DNA from: a virus
IMG/VR virus record: IMGVR_UViG_3300009177_001479
Coordinates: 1 to 42,963 of that record
DNA length: 42,963 nucleotides
Direction: 5' to 3' (one strand)
The position numbers and the translations under genes are program-made. Shown here one piece after another: positions 2,897-42,963 of the stretch. The notes beneath the pieces were generated by a model, which did no database searches, was not told where the DNA came from, and saw nothing but the letters and a program-made list of their open reading frames with translations. Within the stretch, counting starts at the first letter, position 1; each line of letters begins with the position of its first letter.

Positions 2897-3421
2897 ATGT
2901 CGGATGTGATCGGCATCGCGACGATCGCCGTGGGCATTGGTGCGATCATCGGCGCTGTTTACGTCGGCATCCGACAGGCGGGCATTGCCGCTCGCCAAGC
3001 TGATATCCTTGCGCGCCAAGTCAGCCTTGAAGAGACGAAGCTAAAGGCCGATTTATTTGAAAAGCGTTTGGCCACCTATGAGGCCACAGCGGCGTTCCTT
3101 TACCACATAGGCGACTTGGGAGACACCCCAGAGGGTGAGGCAAGAATCTCTCACTTCGCCACCAAGTTCAGGGAGAGCCGCTTCCTCTTCGGTGCTGATG
3201 TGCATGCCGCACTCATGGAGATTTGGGAGAAAGGGAACGAGATCAGAGTTGCGCGCGCGATCTCGATCTCCAACCACGAGGAGCAACTGCCGCGTGATCC
3301 GCGACATACTGAGCAGATTACAAGCGGCCTCACTTGGTCACTCCAACGCGCAGCCGTGATCCATGAAATCTTTGAGCCCTATCTTGAACTCGACTCCCGC
3401 AATCTGAGGATAACCGTCTGA
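2897..3421 (+). CDS. Membrane-anchored coiled-coil protein of unknown function
   Basis: 174-residue protein. Residues 4-24 form one hydrophobic transmembrane helix, followed by a helical stretch rich in RQA repeats and the pattern ADLFEKRLATYEAT, common to a family of bacterial proteins with one N-terminal helix and a cytoplasmic domain. The ATG at 2897 is chosen because it follows GGGGG and starts just before the membrane helix. A TTG at 2867 overlapping the previous stop is the alternative. It ends head-to-head with the lysis genes with no gap. Function unknown. Confidence 0.7.
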   Translation: MSDVIGIATIAVGIGAIIGAVYVGIRQAGIAARQADILARQVSLEETKLKADLFEKRLATYEATAAFLYHIGDLGDTPEGEARISHFATKFRESRFLFGADVHAALMEIWEKGNEIRVARAISISNHEEQLPRDPRHTEQITSGLTWSLQRAAVIHEIFEPYLELDSRNLRITV

Positions 3422-3799
3422 TTAGTCCTTCAGCGACACGCTCCGAAGCTCCCGCAAGCTTTCAATGATCTCAGCGCGGCCTTTCTCGCCATCGGCTTCC
3501 ATCTTCTCAAGCTGGTGTTCGATGCGCTCTTGACCCTTTTCGAGGTTCTGGAGGTTTGTCTCCAGCCTCACCGTTCGCTCAATGTGCTTCTGATGCTCCC
3601 GCTCGATCGAGTCCATGCGCGTGGCGACACTCGCGAGCTTGTGCCCCTGATTGCTGATGGTGAGGTTCAGCGCTCGCTCGCTATCAGAGACCTTCTCAGT
3701 GACAAAGGCGGCGCACCAGCGCGCGATTGCAATTGGTCCGCCAAGACCCGCCGACAGAACGCCAAGCATGCCAGCGACTTCAAGCACTCCGATATCCAT
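3422..3799 (-). CDS. Coiled-coil membrane protein of the lysis pair (spanin-like or holin accessory)
   Basis: 125-residue protein. It has one N-terminal hydrophobic segment (about 8-33) and then a long predicted coiled coil (about 35-125) rich in Glu, Arg and Leu. The start is set at MDIG because the holin-like gene upstream ends in TGATG, where stop and start overlap. A single-membrane-helix protein with a coiled coil, translationally coupled to a holin, fits an inner-membrane spanin or a holin regulator. No lipoprotein partner was seen. The family is not firmly recognised. Confidence 0.6.
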   Translation of the reverse strand: MDIGVLEVAGMLGVLSAGLGGPIAIARWCAAFVTEKVSDSERALNLTISNQGHKLASVATRMDSIEREHQKHIERTVRLETNLQNLEKGQERIEHQLEKMEADGEKGRAEIIESLRELRSVSLKD

Positions 3800-3996
3800 C
3801 AAACTTCGGCCTTGCCACTGGTAGGCACCAAGGCTCCGATTACGCCAGCAATGGCGGCAGCGTAGGACCATGGAGATGGAAGGGCAGACGCGCCCACCAC
3901 TCCAGCGCTGATTGCAGCCCATGTGCTGCGCTCGTTGAGACGAGCCTTTGTGTAAGTGACGAGTTGGCAGAAGCCGCTGAGAACCTTCGAGAACAT
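3799..3996 (-). CDS. Putative holin
   Basis: 65-residue protein with a basic N-terminal helix containing YTKARLNERSTWAA, followed by two hydrophobic segments (about 26-40 and 44-58) separated by a short turn. This resembles small class II or III type holins that permeabilise the inner membrane. TAAATA stands 4 bases before the ATG and no Shine-Dalgarno is present. It is the first gene of a two-gene lysis unit. No endolysin is recognisable nearby, so assignment rests on size, topology and position after the tail genes. Confidence 0.6.
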   Translation of the reverse strand: MFSKVLSGFCQLVTYTKARLNERSTWAAISAGVVGASALPSPWSYAAAIAGVIGALVPTSGKAEV

Positions 3997-4000
3997 ACCC

Positions 4001-4006
4001 TATTTA
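4001..4006 (-). promoter_or_regulatory. TAAATA late element of the holin gene
   Basis: TAAATA followed by GGGT and the ATG: a 4-base gap and no separate ribosome site. Confidence 0.7.
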
Positions 4007-4031
4007 GACGGACGAACCGCAGCGGGGTGCG

Positions 4032-4547
4032 TTAAGCCGCTGTGACAGTGCTCCATTCGATAGCCATCGCGGTGCTGATCTCAGCAAGGTTCGTCGCCGA
4101 CATGATCGCCGACTTCGCACCCATTCTCAGGGCCTCGATGCGCGAGCCGATCACAGTCCATAGCGCGACCCTCGCCGTCACCTCAGAGGCGAGATCGACG
4201 ACGGTCATCGCTCGCGCCTCCGCCTCCGCATTGAGGAACGGAACGCTTGCCGAGGCATCAGCCAAGTATGCCGCCGCTTCCGCCGCCTTATACTGGTAGG
4301 TGAGCATCTGCCCCGCGCCATCCGAGACAAAGCGCAGGCGGAAGGCTTCTGCCGCACGATCGACATGCCCGGTGGCTAGTGCCTTGATGAGTTCGAGATC
4401 GATGTCAGCACCTTTGAGCGCCTCTTGCGGCACCACCATCGTCGCGAGCCCATCTTCGAGCACTTGGATAGCGGCGGAGCCCTCCGGCCCTTGCCCGCGC
4501 CATTTAACCTCACCCGACAGCTTGTCGAAAACTACATAGAATTCCAT
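4032..4547 (-). CDS. Tail-fibre assembly or DUF4376-like protein
   Basis: 171-residue protein. The N-terminal half is a short beta-rich section (FDKLSGEVKWRGQG). The C-terminal half (about 75-171) is helical, with a YQYKAAEAAAYL region and an Ala-rich helix, as in DUF4376 and related tail-fibre-associated proteins. It lies directly after the tail-tip gene, the usual place for fibre chaperones or fibre parts. TAAATA stands 4 bases before the ATG. The family call is tentative. Confidence 0.6.
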   Translation of the reverse strand: MEFYVVFDKLSGEVKWRGQGPEGSAAIQVLEDGLATMVVPQEALKGADIDLELIKALATGHVDRAAEAFRLRFVSDGAGQMLTYQYKAAEAAAYLADASASVPFLNAEAEARAMTVVDLASEVTARVALWTVIGSRIEALRMGAKSAIMSATNLAEISTAMAIEWSTVTAA

Positions 4548-22866: not shown

Positions 22867-24228
22867 TCAAATCATATCCGTGGGAGGCCGATCGATGTTG
22901 GTCCGCTCCTGCCGAGCTTGTTCCTCATCCCAAGTGAGAGCGTCGGAGACAAGCTCACCGGCCTTCATCATGTCGAAGAAGGTCTCAGCGGACATGCGGC
23001 CTGCCTGAACCACTGCCAGCATGCTGGACAGGTCTTGCGCGGTCATCGGGGTGGGGAGGAAGTCGGTGTTGAGCGTGAAGCTCACGGGCTCCGTCGCCAT
23101 CCAACCCATCGCGATGTTGAGCGCCTGAGTGATCCCGCCGCTCACGCAAGTGGTGACCGCTGCCAAGATCGAGTTCTCAGCCGAGCGGCGGATCAACAGC
23201 GTTTCAGCGGCTTCGCCCACGAGCTTATCGCTCTGTAGGATTTTGGAGCCGATGTTCGCCATCTGCTTTTCGATCGCGTCAACATAGTTGCTGAGCGATG
23301 CCACGCCTTGGCCGCTGTGCTCGCTGATATCGACCTTAACCTCTTGGCCGTCCTTGCCGCCTTTGAACTGCCAGATAGAATCAACGGCGACGCGGAACTC
23401 AGTTTCAAAATCGTCGAGGCCGGTGACATAGCGGATGGGTGCCCCGATGTAGTTGAGCACATTGTTGAGCCGTGCCTGAGCCCGGTAATGGGAGACGTTC
23501 AAGCGGCAGAGATCGTCGAACGGAGCTTTAGGCGGGGTGAGCGTGTTCGGCTCTGTGGTGATGATCTTGAGCGGGATGGCGTTGAGTGGTTTGCCATCCT
23601 TGAGCGGGGTGATCGTCTCGCCCTGAAACCATGTGCCGCCAATGAGCCGGTGCATCGTGACGCTGTAGACGCCTTCCTCAAGCCGTAGCTCGCGAATGGT
23701 GTTGAGATCATCAAGCAGGCGAGCACCCACGATGGCGCGGCGGTTGCCGATGCGGGCGAACGCGACATCAAGGATCGCCTCAGCCTTGTAGAGTGCGAGA
23801 CGGGGGACAAGGCCAAGCTCGAATGCCTGAGCCTTGCTGATCGACCCTTCTGGCATCGTGGGATGATCGACAAGTAGCGCCGTCCAGTTGGTGATCATCG
23901 TTTCCGAAAGGAGCACGCGGGCAAGCTGCTCAAGGTTGAGCGCGTCGGTGACGGTCTCGAAGTAGTCAGCGAGGCCAGCGGGTGCGGTGAAGCTGGCGGG
24001 CTTGCGGAACACAAGGCCGATGTTGGCCTCAAGCGTGCGGCAAGCGCCGGGGAAGTAATCGACGCTATCGACATATGCGAGGTAGGCGCTGTCGGACTGT
24101 CCGTTGATGCGCTTGAGGTAAGCTTCGCCAGCGGCTTTGATTTCATCTTCGCCCGCGATGACGTCACGGTTGCGCTGCCAGCGCTTAGCCGCTGCGAGGT
24201 ATTCGGGATTACGGGCGTCGATCGTCAT
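22867..24228 (-). CDS. Portal protein (DUF4055-like)
   Basis: 453-residue protein of the DUF4055 / SPP1 gp6-like portal group. It forms the dodecameric DNA channel at the head vertex. The N-terminal RWQRNRDVIAGEDEIKAAGEAYL and later DYFPGACRTLEANIGLVFRKP are typical. The central part contains the stem and wing region and the C-terminus is helical. It follows the large terminase with 11 bases between. TAAATA stands 4 bases before the ATG and no Shine-Dalgarno is visible. Confidence 0.9.
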   Translation of the reverse strand: MTIDARNPEYLAAAKRWQRNRDVIAGEDEIKAAGEAYLKRINGQSDSAYLAYVDSVDYFPGACRTLEANIGLVFRKPASFTAPAGLADYFETVTDALNLEQLARVLLSETMITNWTALLVDHPTMPEGSISKAQAFELGLVPRLALYKAEAILDVAFARIGNRRAIVGARLLDDLNTIRELRLEEGVYSVTMHRLIGGTWFQGETITPLKDGKPLNAIPLKIITTEPNTLTPPKAPFDDLCRLNVSHYRAQARLNNVLNYIGAPIRYVTGLDDFETEFRVAVDSIWQFKGGKDGQEVKVDISEHSGQGVASLSNYVDAIEKQMANIGSKILQSDKLVGEAAETLLIRRSAENSILAAVTTCVSGGITQALNIAMGWMATEPVSFTLNTDFLPTPMTAQDLSSMLAVVQAGRMSAETFFDMMKAGELVSDALTWDEEQARQERTNIDRPPTDMI

Positions 24229-24239: not shown

Positions 24240-25607
24240 TCAGCCCCAGAACCCCTCCGCAGGTGAGGCACGGCCCACCTTCGGGATCGCTGCCCTGTCG
24301 GTGAGTGCGGTGACACCCCAGACGAGAGAGTCGAGGCGATCGGGCGAACCCGATTTCGAGCGATTGAACGATGAGTGAAAGGCGAACATTTGCCGCTCAA
24401 GGGTAGGGAACTCGCCCACGTGCTTGATCTTGCCATCCGTGTAGAGGATCGAGACAGGCTCAGCGCGGATGACCTTGCCCCGGCTCGCGCGCACGGGTTT
24501 GATGGGCAGATAGGCGTTGATGTGCCGAAGCGGTTCTTTGACAAGATCGCCGCCTTGGTTCTCTTCAATTACGATGAAGTCCGCCCGCCATTCGAGATAA
24601 GCTTGCTCCACGGCTGTGGCCCAATCGGTAGGGGAGCCTCGAAGCGAGTAGTCGGCGAGCACATAGACGATGCCGTCCTCATCGATCCCGGTGACGGTAA
24701 TGCCGTGTTCGTCGGACTTCTCGTGCGAGGAGACGGCAGGATCGACATTCACCCCGATGCGCACCAGCGGCGGGATGGCGGCTAGGCGTTCCTCGATCGA
24801 AGCTGAGGCGGCGACCGGCACCCGATTGGCGTTGACGATGCTCGGCTTGAACATCGAATATTCGCGTTCGGAACGCCAGTAGCCGGTGACGAACCGCTGC
24901 ACCTTCTCGTCGGACATGCGGCGCGCACGCTGGAGGTAGTTGGCCGCAACATGCGTGGCGTCCTCAGCGAGGTTCATCTGCAAGGATGCGTAATCGGCGG
25001 GATCGTCGAGCGGCATGTTGCGCGCCGGATCGAGCCCCTTTTCCCAGATTGCGAAGGTCCAGTCCTCGACATCAGGGTTGAGATCGAGAAACATGAGCGG
25101 CTTGAGAACCTTGCCGCTCGCCTTCGCGGTTTGTCCCGATAGACGGGTGCTCAGCGTCTCAAAGTCATCGTATTCAAATTCAGTGCATTCGTTCATCCAT
25201 ATGGTGTCGAACTCCTGTCCGAGCACGCGATCACGGTTGTTGTCATCGAAGCCATAGAAGCCGATCACTGAGCCGTTGCTAAGCTCAATCGACATTTCTT
25301 CTTTATTGATCGTGCAGTTCTTGGGGTTGCTGAGAAAGCCGGGGAAGGCGAGGTCGCACGCTTTGCGGAAGGCGACCTTGAACAGCGTGTCCTTGGCGGC
25401 GACGGCGCTGCGCCTGAAAATACCATGGCGCGAACCGGGCGAGGTCATCGCCCGCATCAGGATCATGTAACTGATCACGATCGACTTGCCCGATCGTCCG
25501 CCACCGTAGAACAAGAGGTTCGTGGCAGTGGTAGACTTCACAAGGTCCATCGCAGCTTGCTGCAATGGGATAGGGGCGAACTGTGATGGTTGGTCGGCGA
25601 GCTTCAC
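24240..25607 (-). CDS. Terminase large subunit
   Basis: 455-residue packaging motor. Walker A is GGGRSGKS (residues 35-42). Walker B is FDTIWMNE (133-140) with Glu140 as likely catalytic base. The C-terminal nuclease has VNVDP (Asp289), VIEENQGG (Glu348/349) and PDRLDSLVW (Asp423/426). It cuts and pumps phage DNA into the prohead. It begins with GTG, 4 bases after TAAATA. The small subunit lies about 4.6 kb away on the same strand, with regulators and recombinases between, which is unusual; the genes are normally adjacent. Confidence 0.95.
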   Translation of the reverse strand: MKLADQPSQFAPIPLQQAAMDLVKSTTATNLLFYGGGRSGKSIVISYMILMRAMTSPGSRHGIFRRSAVAAKDTLFKVAFRKACDLAFPGFLSNPKNCTINKEEMSIELSNGSVIGFYGFDDNNRDRVLGQEFDTIWMNECTEFEYDDFETLSTRLSGQTAKASGKVLKPLMFLDLNPDVEDWTFAIWEKGLDPARNMPLDDPADYASLQMNLAEDATHVAANYLQRARRMSDEKVQRFVTGYWRSEREYSMFKPSIVNANRVPVAASASIEERLAAIPPLVRIGVNVDPAVSSHEKSDEHGITVTGIDEDGIVYVLADYSLRGSPTDWATAVEQAYLEWRADFIVIEENQGGDLVKEPLRHINAYLPIKPVRASRGKVIRAEPVSILYTDGKIKHVGEFPTLERQMFAFHSSFNRSKSGSPDRLDSLVWGVTALTDRAAIPKVGRASPAEGFWG

Positions 25608-34543: not shown

Positions 34544-34683
34544 AAGCACGTGGGAACGGCCTGACCGGCGCGACGCGCGATCGGTAGCAGGAAGATCAGC
34601 GAGAGGTGTGAAGAGGAATAGGCAATTTTTGTTGATTGGAACCGCATGGCCGAACCGCCATTTGCTATCTGGGGGCGAGTCAA

Positions 34684-34947
34684 ATGGCTGGAGCCTATAT
34701 GCAAGATAGTTGGTGTGCGCCGATCGTCAGTCGGCATGGAAATACCGTCAGCGGTGGTGCGGCTCGTAACGTCCGTATCGCAGCCGCTGGTGGCATGGAT
34801 ACGATCGTTCAAAGTGTTGCTAGCTGGGCACTTCAGCAAGCAGAGGACGCCGTGCGACGGCAGCGCAAGAGCGCAAAGAAGCTCATGGCCCTTCCCGCGC
34901 AACAGCCATCGGCCAAGCAGCGCCGACTTGAGCAACGGGTCCATTGA
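34684..34947 (+). CDS. Small basic protein, 87 residues
   Basis: 87-residue protein (MAGAYMQDSWCAPIVSRHGN..., with an SWALQQAEDAVRRQRKSAKK helix and a basic C-terminal tail). GGGGG lies 8-9 bases before the ATG at 34684. Its position before the repeat region suggests an accessory or DNA-binding role, but no family was recognised. The frame is moderately supported by composition. Confidence 0.5.
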   Translation: MAGAYMQDSWCAPIVSRHGNTVSGGAARNVRIAAAGGMDTIVQSVASWALQQAEDAVRRQRKSAKKLMALPAQQPSAKQRRLEQRVH

Positions 34948-35044
34948 GGTAACTGCACCCGATGAACCGACCTGCGTAGGCGCTCCCTTCCGCAAGCACG
35001 ACATCGGGCGCAATGCCCCCGCTCATGCCCTCGATCATTTTTTA

Positions 35045-35141
35045 AGACGCGCAAGCCTCGTGACTTCGAGCCAGATTGATACCTTGGACTTCGAGCACGA
35101 AACAAAATTTCAGACGCGCAAGCCTCGTAGTGACTTCGAGC
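35045..35141. repeat. Pair of 27-30 bp direct repeats
   Basis: AGACGCGCAAGCCTCG, then an optional TAG, then TGACTTCGAGC, occurs at 35045-35071 and 35112-35141. A partial third copy, GACTTCGAGCA, is at 35088-35098. The repeats could be iterons or protein sites. Confidence 0.7.
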
Positions 35142-35162
35142 AGGCATGTGAGCGCAGCGAGC

Positions 35163-35253
35163 TTGTCTTGTGTATTATACATAAGCCCGCTCGGGCTGGT
35201 GTCTTGTGTATTATACCAATTAACTAAGACATCACTGGTATAATACACAAGAC
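35163..35253. repeat. Three copies of a 16-bp site, two direct and one inverted
   Basis: GTCTTGTGTATTATAC occurs at 35165-35180 and 35201-35216, and its exact inverse GTATAATACACAAGAC at 35238-35253. The last two form an 18-bp inverted repeat (with CCA/TGG) around a 19-base spacer. Between the first two lies AGCCCG-CT-CGGGCT. The composition and arrangement fit an origin, partition, resolution or operator site. Confidence 0.7.
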
Positions 35254-35257
35254 AATA

Positions 35258-36172
35258 TCAGCCCCCCGATTGCGCGATACGCCCCGTGGCCCATGTCTGC
35301 ATCTTCGTCGATTGGAGATCGGTTGCGCGCGACTGTCCCACCACTGTGCTGTGGCGTGGTCCAGAGCGGGTCTCCTTGGTGGTCATCTTGAACGGCTTAC
35401 CCGCACCGTCGAGTGTCGAGCACGCAGGCAGGAGACAGGCGCTATCCGGTCCTGTGACCAGCATGATCGCCTCCACCGTGCGCGCCTCGATCTCAGCGGC
35501 GGAGATTAGGGCGTAATGGTAGGGATGCCAGTGCGTGCCACCACCGGCCTTTGCCGATCGCTTCACGCACAGTCGCGCTATCAATAGCCCCTTGGCTTCT
35601 GCACCCGGTAGCACTTGCTCGACAAGGAACCGCATCTCCTCCGGGTCCATCGCCTTCCACGCTCGCTTCAATCGCGCACGGATTTGGTCTGCGGTGAATA
35701 GGTCGCCGACATTCGCGTAGAAGTCGGGCTGCTTCGTGGTGAGCGGGGTTCGATGTCCCGCCACACTGGCGCGAACGCTTACCGCATATCTGGCGGGACG
35801 CTCCCGGCTATTATCGCCCTCAGCCTTGGTCCGCTGACCGTGAGGTTGGTTGTCCCAGATGCTCAACTCGACGGTGCCGGGATGTGCGGGGAACGCCTTG
35901 AGCGACACCGGCATGGGCGCATCCTTGAAACGCTTGGTAAAGCGTGCCTGAAAGACGCCTGCAAGGGCGCTGTCAGCGTCGATGGCTTTTTCGATGTGGT
36001 CGAGCATCGCTGCGAAGCTCAACGCACCTGTAGGGGCTCCTACGGGGCTTGGGGCGGTATCGTTAGCGGGCTCTCGCGCGGCAAGCATCGCACGCAGTCG
36101 TGTGGTGGCATTTTGGCTTAGTGGCGGCGGAGCGTAAGCGTCGGCTTCGTCGGCCTCTTCGTTATAGTTCAT
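35258..36172 (-). CDS. Unknown protein behind an attenuator-like leader, 304 residues
   Basis: 304-residue soluble protein. The N-terminus is acidic (MNYNEEADEADAYAPPPL), then a helical region with FAAMLDHIEKAIDADSALAGVFQ (about 57-79), and a longer mixed part with LTTKQPDFYANVGDLFTADQIRARLKRAWKAM and VKRSAKAGGGTHWHPYHYA. The ATG at 36172 is preceded by AAGGA at 8 bases. A TAAATA element and a terminator-like hairpin lie upstream. The family is not recognised. It ends against the repeat array, so a role in replication or in binding those repeats can be imagined but is not shown. Confidence 0.65.
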   Translation of the reverse strand: MNYNEEADEADAYAPPPLSQNATTRLRAMLAAREPANDTAPSPVGAPTGALSFAAMLDHIEKAIDADSALAGVFQARFTKRFKDAPMPVSLKAFPAHPGTVELSIWDNQPHGQRTKAEGDNSRERPARYAVSVRASVAGHRTPLTTKQPDFYANVGDLFTADQIRARLKRAWKAMDPEEMRFLVEQVLPGAEAKGLLIARLCVKRSAKAGGGTHWHPYHYALISAAEIEARTVEAIMLVTGPDSACLLPACSTLDGAGKPFKMTTKETRSGPRHSTVVGQSRATDLQSTKMQTWATGRIAQSGG

Positions 36173-36469: not shown

Positions 36470-36643
36470 ATGTCTACTACCATTACTACCATACTGGCGA
36501 TCAGCATCGCCATATTCTTGTTCCGCGCCTTGATGCGCCAAACTCTTCGAGCCGATCGGGCTGAAGCCGCTTTCGCGAGAGTTGAAGCCACGATCAGGGA
36601 ATGTGAGCGCGCTACGGCCACTAAGCCGAAGGCGGGAGCGTAA
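36470..36643 (+). CDS. Small membrane protein, 57 residues
   Basis: 57-residue protein with one N-terminal membrane helix (MSTTITTILAISIAIFLF) followed by a helical, Glu/Arg-rich tail. GGAG lies 8 bases before the ATG, partly inside a hairpin. The stop overlaps the start of the endonuclease gene (TAATG), so they are translationally coupled. It resembles single-helix phage accessory proteins such as holin-like or spanin-like parts, but nothing is specific. Confidence 0.65.
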   Translation: MSTTITTILAISIAIFLFRALMRQTLRADRAEAAFARVEATIRECERATATKPKAGA

Positions 36644-37242
36644 TGGCTCGCCCTCGCAAGCACCCTCTGCCGACGATCGCCGAGCTTCGTTACTGCTTCG
36701 ACTACGATCCGCAATCCGGTGAAATCCGCACGCGAGCGCGTGAGGGGGACGACGCTTACATCCTCGCGTTCAACCGCCGCTATGCCGGTCGCGTCGTCGG
36801 TTCCGTGATGAACACTGGCTATCGCTGGATCAGGGTGCCCGGTTACGGGACTATGCTGGGGCACCGGCTTGCATGGGCGATCCACCATGGGCGGTGGCCT
36901 ACCGAGATCGACCACCGCGACGGCGATAAGCTCAACAACCGACTCGACAACCTACGCGAGGTCACACGCGCACAGAACAATCACAATCGGCCAACGCGGG
37001 CTCGAAGCGGCTACAAGGGCGTGAAGGCACGCGGCAACAAGTGGGTGGCGTCACTCAAGGCGAACGGCCGCCACCGGCATCTAGGAACCTTTGAGACCCG
37101 CGAGCTTGCTCACGCCGCTTACCAACGGGCTGCACGAGAGCATCACGGTGACTACCTTAACCTTCGCGTGATCCCAGTGGGCTTGGTCTCAGCCGCTTTC
37201 GCAATCAGCATCGCTTCTCAGGGCCGCAGCACCATGCGCTAG
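36643..37242 (+). CDS. HNH endonuclease with AP2 domain
   Basis: 199-residue homing-endonuclease-like protein. The HNH core is at about 68-120: HRLAWAIHHGRWPTEIDH, DGDKLNNRLDNLREVT, RAQNNHN. An AP2-type DNA-binding domain follows (about 124-170): SGYKGVKARGNKWVASLK then RHLGTFETRELAHAAYQRAA. Such genes are often mobile and cut specific sites. It is coupled to the membrane protein gene before it. The last 20 residues are hydrophobic and probably extra. No group I intron was seen around it. Confidence 0.9.
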   Translation: MARPRKHPLPTIAELRYCFDYDPQSGEIRTRAREGDDAYILAFNRRYAGRVVGSVMNTGYRWIRVPGYGTMLGHRLAWAIHHGRWPTEIDHRDGDKLNNRLDNLREVTRAQNNHNRPTRARSGYKGVKARGNKWVASLKANGRHRHLGTFETRELAHAAYQRAAREHHGDYLNLRVIPVGLVSAAFAISIASQGRSTMR

Positions 37243-37356
37243 ATAGCCTTCTAGAAGCTGAGTTCAAAGCGGGCATGGATGACTTACGATTCGAAAATCT
37301 ATAATCAATTATAACTGATTTGCAGTTCGCCTCTTTCCAAAGTCTTCTTAAAAGAT

Positions 37357-37533
37357 TTGACAGGTCGTGGAAATCTGGTAGGTTGCCGCTCGTATAGTTA
37401 GAGCCGATTTACAGGCTCGCGAGCCGCCGTCTCGTCCAAAGCAATGCACGGCACCCCGCTCCTGATCGAATGATCAGGTCGGCTGCGCCGTGGGCAATCC
37501 TGCTTCCGGTCAACGCTTTGGACGGAGATGAAT
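37357..37533 (+). promoter_or_regulatory. Promoter and structured leader of the DUF5131 gene
   Basis: TTGACA (37357-37362) is a possible -35, but no well spaced -10 is evident; TATAGT (37393-37398) is another candidate. The leader has alternative hairpins at GAGCC/GGCTC and GGCTCGCGAGCC (37414-37425), then a long stem CGTCCAAAGC (37433-37442) with GCTTTGGACG (37515-37524) that ends next to GGAG. Inside it, CACGGC/GCCGTG (37447-37452 with 37487-37492), CCG/CGG and CCTGATC/GATCAGG around a GAAT loop make a nested hairpin. No tRNA or known riboswitch was recognised. Confidence 0.6.
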
Positions 37534-38877
37534 ATGTCCAAGAAGTCCGTGCCTTTTGGTTCGTCCGCGATCGAGTGGACCGATGCAACGTGGAACCCCG
37601 TGGTTGGCTGCACCCGCCACTCCGCTGCCTGTGACAACTGCTACGCTATCCGAATGTCGGCGCGACAGCAGGGAATGAACAGTGGCGCTAAGCTGGCTGG
37701 AACTCGCCCGCAATATAGCGGAGTGGTCAAACAGGGTGATTGGACGGGCGTTATCAATGCCGCGCCAGAGCACATCTGGACGAAGCCGTTGCGCACGAAG
37801 AAGCCGACCACCTACTTTTCGAACTCGATGTCCGACCTCTTCCACCAGAACATGGAGGATAAGTGGATCAAGCGCGCCTTCGAGATCATGAATCGCTGCC
37901 CACAGCACAACTTTCAAGTTCTAACGAAGCGTCCATCACGCGCGGTAGCAGCGACAGAGCGCCTTGGTCTCAACTGGTCGGATAACATATGGTTCGGAGC
38001 GTCGATCGGGGAAAACAAGTTCGCGATCAGCTTTGTTCGAGAGCTTCTGAAGGTGCCTGCGGCCATCCGCTTCGTCTCGGCGGAGCCACTGATTACAGCG
38101 CTACCCGATCTTGATGTTTCCGCCGTCGATTGGGTGATTGCAGGAGGGGAAAGTGGTCCTGTTTCTGGTGACCTTCGCCCCGCCGATCCCGATTGGCTGC
38201 GCGATTTGCGAGATCGTTGCGCCGCAGCGGGCACCCCGTTCTTCTTCAAACAGTGGGGCTCTCACAACGCCCTTGGCGAGTTCGTCGGGAAGGCTGATGC
38301 CGGTCATATGCTCGATGGAAAGGAAATCTGGCAGATGCCTGCGAGCGTGTTCGACCGTATGAGCACGATCAATCCCCGTTGGACACGGGTTGCAAGCTCT
38401 ACTGTGAACCGGGCAAAGCAGGGCGTGGTGGCGCTTCGCCCTTACGATCGTGACCTTCTTCGCGACGGTGAATTCTTGTTGGTGGAGCCCGAGGATGGCG
38501 AGCTCGGAACGGTCATAGCGACCGATGATGCGGTTGAGCATTTAGTGCATAAGCTCGGCGCAGCGTCACCTGATGATGCCGCGATGGATAACCCCAATGA
38601 TCAGCATCATACCCGCTATTCGCAAGCAGTGCTCTCCGCCCTTGGGGAGCGGGAGCAGACAGTGGCCGAATTGGTGCGAGTGACGGGCCTGTCTGGCCCT
38701 ACGGTCGCCACACATGCACGGCGATTGGCGCTTGCCGGGAAGGCGATCAAGACCAAGGATCGCCCGCTGAGCTTCGCAGCGATGCCATCGGCTCAGGCGA
38801 TCATCCAGATGCGGTCTCAAGCCGAGGCGATGCTGCAAGAGGCCACAAAATTGCTAGCCTCGCTGGCAGGAGTTTGA
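37534..38877 (+). CDS. DUF5131 (phage Gp37/Gp68 family) protein with a C-terminal winged helix
   Basis: 447-residue protein. The N-terminal 250 residues are DUF5131: IEWTDATWNPVVGC, then the Cys trio C26-x6-C33-x2-C36 ending in NCYA, plus YFSNSMSDLFH and LTKRPSR. The Cys pattern resembles a radical-SAM-like metal site, but no activity is established. An extra C-terminal part has a winged-helix (about 365-415: VLSALGEREQTVAELVRVTG, then GPTVATHARRLALAGKAI) and a helical tail. The ATG at 37534 is used because GGAG lies 6-9 bases upstream; the ATG two codons earlier is too close. It is preceded by a structured leader. Confidence 0.85.
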   Translation: MSKKSVPFGSSAIEWTDATWNPVVGCTRHSAACDNCYAIRMSARQQGMNSGAKLAGTRPQYSGVVKQGDWTGVINAAPEHIWTKPLRTKKPTTYFSNSMSDLFHQNMEDKWIKRAFEIMNRCPQHNFQVLTKRPSRAVAATERLGLNWSDNIWFGASIGENKFAISFVRELLKVPAAIRFVSAEPLITALPDLDVSAVDWVIAGGESGPVSGDLRPADPDWLRDLRDRCAAAGTPFFFKQWGSHNALGEFVGKADAGHMLDGKEIWQMPASVFDRMSTINPRWTRVASSTVNRAKQGVVALRPYDRDLLRDGEFLLVEPEDGELGTVIATDDAVEHLVHKLGAASPDDAAMDNPNDQHHTRYSQAVLSALGEREQTVAELVRVTGLSGPTVATHARRLALAGKAIKTKDRPLSFAAMPSAQAIIQMRSQAEAMLQEATKLLASLAGV

Positions 38878-39503: not shown

Positions 39504-40448
39504 ATGATCTATTCGCCATCGTTCTGCCGCCTGCTTACGGAGCTTGAGCAATTCCAGCTTCCGCCGCGCCGCAGAGTAGAAGCGGGCGATTGCGTGAAGG
39601 GGCGGGTGAAGGCTCAGGCGATCATCACCGCAACGGCAACCGGAGCGGTAGCCGTGCCACCCGTTCTAGGAACGATAAGCGCCACGATCAGCATGAGAGC
39701 CGTGCTACGCTCGCGCCAGCGCTCAATCCCGCTCAAGGTCAAGAAGCCCACTGAGTGGAGACCGTCCCGCCCCAAAGTGCCTCGCAAGGCGAAGGAGAGC
39801 CGCATTTCAGGCGAGGTGCTGCCTCGCCCGAAACGCTCGCAAGCCGCCATCGATGCCGCCGCTCAAAAAACACGGGCGCAGCGTGAGGCGAGAGTAGCCG
39901 CCCTCCTTCCACTTGTGGCGGAAGCTAGGGCTCAAGGAGCGGTCTTGCTCAAGGACATCTGCCTCTACCTCGATAGCGTCGGCCACAAACCCCAGCGAGG
40001 GAAGCGGTGGTCAACAGGCACTCTGTCATCAATGCTTCCCGGCGAGGATGACCGAAGGGCCAGAGAAGCCACCTTCGTGGCCTTAATCTCACAGGCAAGT
40101 GGCGAAGGGGCTGCGAACACCGCTGAGATTGCAGCTTGGCTCAACGATCAGGGGCATCGCACGATGCAGGATCGAGCTTGGACATCTGGCAACGTTTATA
40201 GCTTCATCAAAACGCGGCCTGAGTGCTGGAGCACCGCTGCGCTTTTGGTGCTAGTCCCCGGTAAAGACGAGCGTAAAGCGCGCGACGCCGCCATCATAAG
40301 CCTTGTTGAGCAAGCCCGCCGTGAGGGCGCTCAGTCCAATGGGGACATCGCTGTTTGGCTCAACGAGCGAGGGCACCGCACTACAAAGAACGTCCAGTGG
40401 ACCCGCTTCAATCTTCATTCCGTCCTCGCGCGCATCGGCGATGGCTAA
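39504..40448 (+). CDS. Protein with three tandem recombinase-type HTH repeats
   Basis: 314-residue protein. The first 120 residues are basic and low complexity. Then three tandem units of about 65 residues occur (about 131-177, 193-239, 253-309), each with a helical part and the pattern IAxWLNxxGHRTxxxxxWTxxNVxSxx or a close variant. This is the pattern of the DNA-binding segment that follows the catalytic domain in serine recombinases, for example SLNGIATALNERTIRTPRGG in the small recombinase here. A protein made only of three such units without a catalytic domain is unusual. AAGGAG precedes the ATG. The function is unknown; DNA binding is inferred. Confidence 0.75.
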   Translation: MIYSPSFCRLLTELEQFQLPPRRRVEAGDCVKGRVKAQAIITATATGAVAVPPVLGTISATISMRAVLRSRQRSIPLKVKKPTEWRPSRPKVPRKAKESRISGEVLPRPKRSQAAIDAAAQKTRAQREARVAALLPLVAEARAQGAVLLKDICLYLDSVGHKPQRGKRWSTGTLSSMLPGEDDRRAREATFVALISQASGEGAANTAEIAAWLNDQGHRTMQDRAWTSGNVYSFIKTRPECWSTAALLVLVPGKDERKARDAAIISLVEQARREGAQSNGDIAVWLNERGHRTTKNVQWTRFNLHSVLARIGDG

Positions 40449-40828: not shown

Positions 40829-40863
40829 GCCGAGACTATTGCGAGCGAGTTGAGCCCGCTGTA

Positions 40864-40869
40864 TAAATA
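40864..40869 (+). promoter_or_regulatory. Full TATAAATA element of the small RNA candidate
   Basis: TATAAATA (40862-40869) is the complete T4-like octamer, followed about 36 bases later by an intrinsic terminator and no coding frame. Confidence 0.7.
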
Positions 40870-40939
40870 AGAGTGTAGTGGTTCTCCACTTTTGCTCGAT
40901 ACCCGCCCCCTGAGTGAGTCCCCCACTCAGGGGGTTTTT
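40870..40939 (+). ncRNA. Candidate late small RNA of about 65-70 bases
   Basis: The RNA would start 5-6 bases after TATAAATA and end at the strong terminator CCCCCTGAGTG (40906-40916) / CACTCAGGGGG (40924-40934) with TTTTT. A short hairpin GTGG-TTCT-CCAC lies near its 5' end. No start codon with a ribosome site lies inside. The next gene has its own TAAATA directly after the terminator. Confidence 0.55.
40906..40939 (+). terminator. Strong intrinsic terminator
   Basis: An 11-bp perfect stem, CCCCCTGAGTG with CACTCAGGGGG, a 7-base loop and a TTTTT tract. Confidence 0.85.
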
Positions 40940-40941
40940 CG

Positions 40942-40947
40942 TAAATA
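40942..40947 (+). promoter_or_regulatory. TAAATA late element after the terminator
   Basis: TAAATA, then CGAT, then GTG. It sits 2 bases after the T tract of the terminator and sets the GTG start. Confidence 0.68.
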
Positions 40948-40951
40948 CGAT

Positions 40952-41245
40952 GTGCGCCTGATAGATCACCTCAACCACGACCTTGCGTGGGCGTCAGCCC
41001 GAAGTGAGCGGAAGGCGATCCGCCTCCAGTATTTTCGCGCTGCCGTAGAGACGATGATCAGCCGATCGCTCACCAGCCTCCCCAAGCCACGCGCACAGCG
41101 CATCAACCGCAAGCCGAATGATCCTGTGGTGATCGTGGGTTATGTCAATTTCTGGAACCGTCGCACCGACAATGAGCTAGCGGAGCTATTCGAGCACCTC
41201 GCCCCATACTTCACCCATCACACCAATCGCGGCACGCGGTTCTAG
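40952..41245 (+). CDS. Small basic late protein, 97 residues
   Basis: 97-residue helical basic protein (VRLIDHLNHDLAWASARSER, then RLQYFRAAVETMI). It starts with GTG, 4 bases after TAAATA; a longer frame would run through the terminator and is rejected. It overlaps the end of the integrase gene on the other strand, sharing the CTAG of both stops. No family was recognised. A small late protein, possibly head-related. Confidence 0.62.
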   Translation: MRLIDHLNHDLAWASARSERKAIRLQYFRAAVETMISRSLTSLPKPRAQRINRKPNDPVVIVGYVNFWNRRTDNELAELFEHLAPYFTHHTNRGTRF

Positions 41246-42963
41246 CCGCGAACCGGCTCGGCGATGGCGGCGAGCGTCTCCCGGATGCCGCTAAGGGTCA
41301 TCGGGTGGAGCTTGAGCGCATCGATCGTCTCGGCTTGCGGGAAGGTGAGCAGCTTATCCGCTCCATCGGGATTCGCATCGCTGAGATCGTATGAGCGCAG
41401 AAGGCTCCCATTCGCGAAGGTGTAGAGCTTCAAGCCTCCGCGCAACGTCACGCCGAAGGTCTTGTCGGGATGGAACTCAACCCGGTCGATCACTTGGCGA
41501 AGGGCGGCAGCGAGCTTGGCGCGCATATCGAAAAGCGCCTCGCCTTCGAGGGTTGCCATTTCATCCCGTAGGTTGCGGACAGCTACCCGGCGACCGTCCA
41601 GCGTGCTGCGCTTCGTAGCGCGCACGGTCTCTGACAGGCTAGCGATCTCTTCCTCGATCTTCGGCAGAGCGGCGCTGTAGCGCTGGACTGAGGTGTAGAG
41701 CATCGTCTTGAGTGCTTGGTCGTCCTCGCTCTCCCACTTGGCGAAGGCAGCGTTGAGGCGACGCTTGGTATCGTCGCGCTCCGCTTCCTTGCCAGCGAGC
41801 TTGATCGCGGCAACGCCCGCCTTGTTTGCCTCAGCATCACTGACCTTGATGTCGGTGACCCAATCGAGCACCGCCCGCTCAAGCTCGCCATAAGGGAAGC
41901 GAGCGTCGTTGCTGCAAACGTGGCCGCGACGATTGCCCGAGCAAGTGAGGAAGATCGATCCGGGGCTGGGGCGTTTGCCCTGTCGATCGCGATATTCCAT
42001 TACCCGCCCACATTGGCAGTGAGCGATACCGACGAAGATGTTGGGCACCTTGCCGGTGCGGCTTGGCGAAGCGCCGCAGTGGCGCTTGGCAATCTCGGCT
42101 TGTGCCCGGTAGAAAATCTCTTCCGAGACGACAGGCGGGAAATAGCCCTTGATGGGCTCGCCGATGGGGCGGCGAGGACCACCCACCTTCGTGCATAGTT
42201 GAAGCTCACCGATGGTGCGCCGGTCCTTTAGAAGTTCAGCGACCGCCGACATCCCCCAGCCATCCCCGTGCTTAAAGGGTGGCACGCCTCGCGCATTCAG
42301 GCGACGCGCGATAGCTTCCTTGCCAAGGCCCTCAACGCACATTTCGAAGATGTCGCGGACGATAGGCGCGCGGTCATTGAAGCGCCATTCACCGACCAGA
42401 GGCTCGCGAGGATCGTCAGGAATGAGATCGAGCCAGCCCGGACCTTGGCGAGTGAGCTTGCGCCGTCCGCCACCTTCTACTTCTGCACGCTTCTCGGCCC
42501 ACACCTCTTGCAGGCGATCAGCCTTGTCCTTGGACTCCCGGTGCCCCTTTGTGAGCGCCGCTTGAAGGGTGGTCATCAGTTCGGCGCGGTTGCGAAGGCG
42601 ATCGAGGCTGTAGACCATATCATCAACGAGCGAGACGACCGTGATCTCCGCGCCAATGATCTTCTGCACCATACCAAGCGCATCCCACGGGTTCTCACGT
42701 GAGAGCCGATCGATGTTCTCGACGATCAGATAGGAACCGCGCGCGATCTCGCCGCCTTCGATCTTGGCGAGAAAGGAAGCGAGCGCGCCCTTTTTCCGGT
42801 GAGCGCCTTTGTATGCGCTCAGTCCTGTATCACGCAGAGAACTGTCAAGAGTCAGCCCGTGCTCCGCTGCGTAGCGCTCCGACTTCCTCAACTGGCGACG
42901 CAAGGAGTCGCCCTTCAATTGCGCGGGCGTAGAGAACCGGATGTAGGAGTAGGCAGTCGTCAT
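41242..42963 (-). CDS. int: Large serine integrase
   Basis: 573-residue recombinase of the large serine type used for phage integration. The catalytic domain (about 1-160) has YIRFSTPAQLKGDSLRRQ with Ser11 as nucleophile and ENIDRLSREN. The Recombinase domain follows (about 180-300), then a zinc ribbon with HCQCGRVMEYRD and a distal cysteine pair (about 318-360), and a coiled coil (about 395-470) for synapsis. The ATG is the last codon of the window, so promoter and attP lie just outside. Convergent with the preceding 97-residue gene. Confidence 0.95.
   Translation of the reverse strand: MTTAYSYIRFSTPAQLKGDSLRRQLRKSERYAAEHGLTLDSSLRDTGLSAYKGAHRKKGALASFLAKIEGGEIARGSYLIVENIDRLSRENPWDALGMVQKIIGAEITVVSLVDDMVYSLDRLRNRAELMTTLQAALTKGHRESKDKADRLQEVWAEKRAEVEGGGRRKLTRQGPGWLDLIPDDPREPLVGEWRFNDRAPIVRDIFEMCVEGLGKEAIARRLNARGVPPFKHGDGWGMSAVAELLKDRRTIGELQLCTKVGGPRRPIGEPIKGYFPPVVSEEIFYRAQAEIAKRHCGASPSRTGKVPNIFVGIAHCQCGRVMEYRDRQGKRPSPGSIFLTCSGNRRGHVCSNDARFPYGELERAVLDWVTDIKVSDAEANKAGVAAIKLAGKEAERDDTKRRLNAAFAKWESEDDQALKTMLYTSVQRYSAALPKIEEEIASLSETVRATKRSTLDGRRVAVRNLRDEMATLEGEALFDMRAKLAAALRQVIDRVEFHPDKTFGVTLRGGLKLYTFANGSLLRSYDLSDANPDGADKLLTFPQAETIDALKLHPMTLSGIRETLAAIAEPVRG

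Follow-up and report, generated by a model that had tools for sequence, protein, structure and literature searches.

The DUF5131 gene of this virus record is preceded by a nested, multi-stem structure whose outer stem runs into the ribosome-binding site, and the computed fold is more stable than its shuffled counterparts and partially buries the GGAG. We tentatively read the element as an orphan, phage-specific 5' leader that may lower and gate translation of the DUF5131 gene.

Genomic setting and architecture of the leader

The window, by which we mean the whole stretch of DNA analysed, is a virus record of 42,963 bases with phage genes. In addition to the terminase, portal and integrase genes (Table 1), a major head protein and tail genes are present, and accessory genes occupy about 28 kb to 41 kb. 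A pattern scan found no relative of the portal protein among viral contigs, and its identity to named phages was at most ~30% among the matches listed, which suggests that the record comes from an orphan phage or prophage, without close relatives. A search for tRNA and tmRNA genes returned none. Near the serine integrase, a 314-residue protein (39504-40448) showed a C-terminal match to the Recombinase and recombinase-like HTH families; a resolvase catalytic domain was looked for in this protein and none was found.

The gap of 285 nt that follows the HNH gene is partly AT-rich, and its AT-rich stretch holds a possible promoter, whose TTGACA hexamer is perfect and lies about 40 bases upstream of the leader. 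We consider the promoter candidate weak, because its -10 element matches only three of six positions and hence went unscored by the consensus scanner.

The initial annotation had described a 10-bp outer stem ending beside the GGAG, a three-part inner hairpin and overlapping arms further upstream, and all of these were located in the sequence. The outer stem pairs CGTCCAAAGC (37433-37442) with GCTTTGGACG (37515-37524), the last G of which is the first G of the GGAG, and it extends outwards through one bulge (GTCTC/GAGAT), taking in all of the GGAG and enclosing the first ATG (37528). Its interior is two-branched, containing the inner hairpin, built from CACGGC/GCCGTG (37447-37452/37487-37492), CCG/CGG and CCTGATC/GATCAGG (37461-37467/37472-37478), and a small side hairpin (37493-37504) that completes the branch. 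Upstream of the outer stem lie GAGCC (37401-37405), GGCTC (37414-37418) and GAGCC (37421-37425), and the segment 37414-37425, GGCTCGCGAGCC, is a perfect palindrome of 12 bp.

The DUF5131 gene likely starts at ATG 37534 and not at ATG 37528 of the longest open reading frame, because the GGAG lies six bases before the former and zero before the latter. A start at 37534 also brings the N-terminus closer to that of the relatives, most of which begin a few residues ahead of IEWTD.

Table 1. Coordinates of the leader, its elements and the genes referred to in the text (positions in the window)
Feature	Position	Strand	Remark
Portal gene	22867-24228	-	
Terminase gene	24240-25607	-	
HNH + AP2 endonuclease gene, upstream neighbour	36643-37242	+	ends ~285 nt before the DUF5131 reading frame
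Possible promoter	37357-37384	+	TTGACA 37357-37362, 16-nt spacer, TAGGTT 37379-37384
Small upstream hairpin	37401-37425	+	middle arm can pair with either side, giving two mutually exclusive hairpins
Main structured element	37428-37530	+	outer stem CGTCTCGTCCAAAGC / GCTTTGGACGGAGATG; MFE about -50.7 kcal/mol, 104 nt
Three-part inner hairpin	37447-37492	+	CACGGC..CCG..CCTGATC GAAT GATCAGG..CGG..GCCGTG; sequence and fold
Ribosome-binding site GGAG	37524-37527	+	predicted fold
DUF5131 gene	37534-38877	+	likely start ATG 37534; longest reading frame from 37528
GTCCAAG, start of coding region	37536-37542	+	can pair with the 3' outer arm CTTTGGAC as an alternative, if 37433-37442 is held open
Large serine integrase gene	41242-42963	-	

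Stability of the fold and accessibility of the ribosome-binding site

For the segment 37395-37530 (136 nt) the MFE was -60.8 kcal/mol, whereas its 200 shuffled versions averaged -45.2 (sd 3.9; z = -3.99) and were all less stable; a second, independent run of 60 shuffles on the same leader gave z = -4.2. Of 200 segments of 136 nt drawn at random from the window, only one reached z <= -3.9. When the window was scanned with a sliding 110-nt frame, 13 of 1072 positions, in about 11 places, lay at z <= -4, the lowest being -8.2; the leader's own grid windows, which cut its stem, fell outside the top 25. Perfect 10-bp inverted repeats with a loop of up to 100 were found about seven times per shuffled copy of the window. 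Given these other folds at z <= -4 and the chance occurrence of 10-bp repeats, the stability of the leader is above chance, yet not exceptional for this phage. The suggestion that the element is more structured than an ordinary 5' region has to be was thus borne out against shuffled sequence, and failed against other intergenic stretches of the window. Both strands folded equally well (minus, -50.9; plus, -50.7), and the stability is therefore no mark of RNA rather than DNA.

Three of the places at z <= -4 were read in the sequence, and proved to be two intergenic hairpins (881-990 and 40841-40950), the second carrying a T run, and a repeat cluster (35164-35254). At 40906-40940 a strong hairpin, CCCCCTGAGTGAGTCCCCCACTCAGGGGG, is followed by TTTTT and is an ordinary intrinsic terminator. 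The cluster, between convergent genes, comprises three identical copies of TGTCTTGTGTATTATAC, direct at 35164 and 35200 and inverted at 35238-35254, and the fold of 35150-35270 (z -7.6) is much stronger than that of the DUF5131 leader. This 17-mer occurred in IMG/VR as only two single copies, the chance level for a 17-mer; the cluster could serve to bind a regulator, or could represent a small repeat element. Just before it, where the gene 34646-35227 ends, are degenerate direct repeats of the GACGCGCAAGCCTCGTGACTTCGAGC type (35041-35140).

In the predicted ensemble of the leader, the unpaired probabilities of the four GGAG bases were 0.45, 0.45, 0.11 and 0.001, a mean of 0.25 that was independent of the length of flank folded. 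The GGAG is therefore paired in the ground-state fold, as in an operator that sequesters the ribosome-binding site, with burial being partial, and ATG 37534 itself is mostly unpaired (~0.85). Computational removal of the 5' arm raised the unpaired probability of the GGAG. Holding this arm open, at a cost of ~11 kcal/mol, left the GGAG largely exposed, and the 3' arm then paired with GTCCAAG. The energy required to open the ribosome-binding site was 15.5 kcal/mol, compared to a mean of 10.8 (sd 3.3) in 128 DUF5131 relatives, a rough comparison in that the relatives' starts were picked by a simple rule; the leader lies 1.4 sd above the relatives' mean and under their 95th percentile (16.3). Burial of the GGAG, as predicted by these folds, appears to be real but moderate.

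Distribution of the leader and properties of the DUF5131 protein

The initial annotation had recognised no RNA class, and indeed a search of the whole window against Rfam 15 gave no match at gathering score; up to E = 10 the only match, to positions 37317-37357 of the minus strand, was at chance level, its 15 bits falling short of a gathering score of 43. Comparison of the leader DNA with plasmid and phage collections gave two chance matches in one search and none in the other. In viral contigs, the outer-stem pattern of 8+8 bases had at least 119 chance matches, with the leader's context absent among those checked, and the pattern joined to ACGGAG had none. Against 299 Sphingomonadaceae-family genomes, only fragments of 17-50 nt, near chance level, were found, and the best 20 fall in unrelated reading frames. 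No second copy of the leader was present in the window. That the leader arose by copying of the start of the DUF5131 gene was considered and rejected, since 45 of 500 shuffles reached the alignment score.

We built a covariance model (R1) from the single leader sequence, which recovered its own source at 4e-34. R1 did not find the leader in ~160 DUF5131 loci, nor in genome draws at order level (299) and at class level (385; together 684, partly overlapping), its reach being limited by derivation from one sequence and by stricter filters on genomes, such that distant relatives could be missed. The genomes searched were sphingomonads/alphaproteobacteria, a guess at the host from the best DUF5131 matches, which weakens this negative result.

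DUF5131 genes are very common. Among 129 upstream regions of such genes, the window included, the mean z was -0.35, and values of z <= -3.9 were seen in two, the window and L079; structured leaders are not general to DUF5131 genes. The leader did not recur upstream of other DUF5131 genes (129 upstream regions, 160 loci). The closest relative of the protein (L316, a genome from the Sphingomonas cavernae family draw) is 55-58% identical over about residues 6-308, and its intergenic region of ~100 nt is divergent and has an exposed AAGGAG. No fold comparable to the leader was seen in L316, and R1 found nothing in that genome. The lack of such a structure in the closest relative argues that the leader is not part of the conserved equipment of the DUF5131 gene. 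At a further locus (L335), a divergent DUF5131 gene (3074-4063) directly follows a reverse-transcriptase-like reading frame, and the locus resembles a diversity-generating retroelement.

The protein of 449 residues carries an N-terminal DUF5131 domain (PF07505, E 8e-83) with an invariant Cx6Cx2C, and it matched 'radical SAM mobile pair protein A' in part, at a score below threshold. The domain also matches the PADLOC candidate defence families PDC-M41B and PDC-M30B. The structure predicted for the protein has a mean pLDDT of 72, with values >80 over most of the DUF5131 domain and mostly <50 in the tail; its best PDB match was spore photoproduct lyase, a DNA-repair enzyme of the radical-SAM type (E 1e-4, with a low TM-score of ~0.3-0.4). 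A radical-SAM-like function may thus be proposed for the protein. The C-terminal part gave a weak ArsR-like HTH match (E 0.02, below the cut-off), and autoregulation through this tail can be put forward as speculation. Scans of viral contigs, of plasmids and of 385 genomes at class level found no relative of the C-terminal part (38344-38874), and a literature search for DUF5131 found no mention.

Interpretation of the leader and alternatives

Gating of translation is the reading we prefer, though with less than even confidence. It is favoured because the z-score is close to -4 with no shuffle as stable; because the GGAG is mostly paired irrespective of the flank chosen, and becomes more accessible when the 5' arm is removed or opened; because the opening energy is above the relatives' mean; and because a 285-nt gap with a perfect TTGACA precedes the leader. 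In the nascent RNA the upstream and inner hairpins would form first, and as the 3' arm emerged the outer stem would close and cover the GGAG, leading to poor ribosome loading. If the 5' arm were occupied or melted, the 3' arm would be released and the GGAG would become more accessible; the released arm could then pair with GTCCAAG, leaving GGAGAUGAAU mostly in a loop. Both this two-state picture, which follows from the predicted folds, and a regulatory role for the leader are plausible; that the leader is transcribed, that it has a regulatory effect, and the nature of any trigger we infer. The reading is weakened because no homologue of the leader was found and the closest DUF5131 relative lacks the structure, because the opening energy is below the relatives' 95th percentile with ATG 37534 mostly unpaired, and because equal or stronger folds occur elsewhere in the window, the minus strand is as stable and the promoter is weak.

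Some phage and bacterial mRNA leaders act as translational operators by sequestering the ribosome-binding site, and those of T4 have been reviewed (PMC3014915). As in such operators, a stem of the present leader closes over the ribosome-binding site, shortly upstream of the start codon; unlike them, its predicted burial is partial, it is without conserved relatives, and it is a candidate without a known ligand, protein or trigger. It also resembles the riboswitch and leader families of Rfam in being a multi-stem 5' leader of ~130 nt, and differs from them in reaching the gathering score of no Rfam 15 family.

It is possible, and would be no great surprise, that the structure is incidental, a generic GC-rich hairpin without a dedicated role that at most slows translation or shields the 5' end of the transcript. 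The leader is conserved in no sequence searched, equally stable hairpins occur elsewhere in the window, and it is absent in DUF5131 relatives. However, an incidental origin sits poorly with a z of about -4 and nested arms that end at the ribosome-binding site, and z -3.9 was reached by only one of the 200 random stretches and one of 128 other DUF5131 upstream regions.

An unlikely reading is that the site acts at the level of DNA, the palindromes GGCTCGCGAGCC and CTGATCGAATGATCAG being candidate operators bound, for example, by the DUF5131 protein through its HTH-like tail or by another phage regulator, and the RNA fold a by-product. The position of two palindromes between the promoter-like sequence and the start, the symmetrical folding of both strands and the weak ArsR-type match in the C-terminal part would agree with this, but neither palindrome was found to recur exactly in the window, the tail model is of low confidence, and an outer stem ending at the GGAG would be left unexplained.

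Like translational attenuators of the erm type, the present leader is long, allows alternative pairings that exclude each other, and contains a short reading frame. A ribosome translating MHGTPLLIE (ATG 37444, stop 37471-37473) would be placed on or beside the 5' arm, freeing the GGAG; the short reading frame begins just 3' of this arm and ends in the apical hairpin, and an opened 5' arm does expose the GGAG. Unlike in the erm-type leaders, however, the reading frame begins after the blocking arm and not before it, and has no convincing ribosome-binding site, the poor one before it being inside a stem that needs prior opening. As nine-codon reading frames are also frequent by chance, we consider attenuation improbable. 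Also improbable is a new class of phage leader RNA, alternating between the closed outer stem and a hairpin of the 3' arm with the coding start, through which a signal or the protein itself would gate a radical-SAM-like DUF5131 protein.

The element lies downstream of the HNH gene in the same direction, but a role as transcription terminator or processing site of that gene is very unlikely: no U run follows any stem, a GC-rich stem followed by a T run or other terminator-like site was not found in 37200-37600, and the element, which begins only after the promoter-like stretch, ~160-190 bases past the HNH stop, runs up to the ribosome-binding site of the next gene. A retron non-coding RNA was rejected, as the flanking genes tested encode HNH/AP2, DUF5131 and unrelated proteins and no adjacent reverse transcriptase.

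The leader alone says little until relatives or experiments exist. If gating of translation is correct, the leader would add to the phage mRNA leaders that keep the translation of an accessory gene low. The DUF5131 gene is of some interest, given its matches to PADLOC candidate defence families and a predicted fold nearest to spore photoproduct lyase, and it would make sense for a gene of this kind to be tightly controlled.
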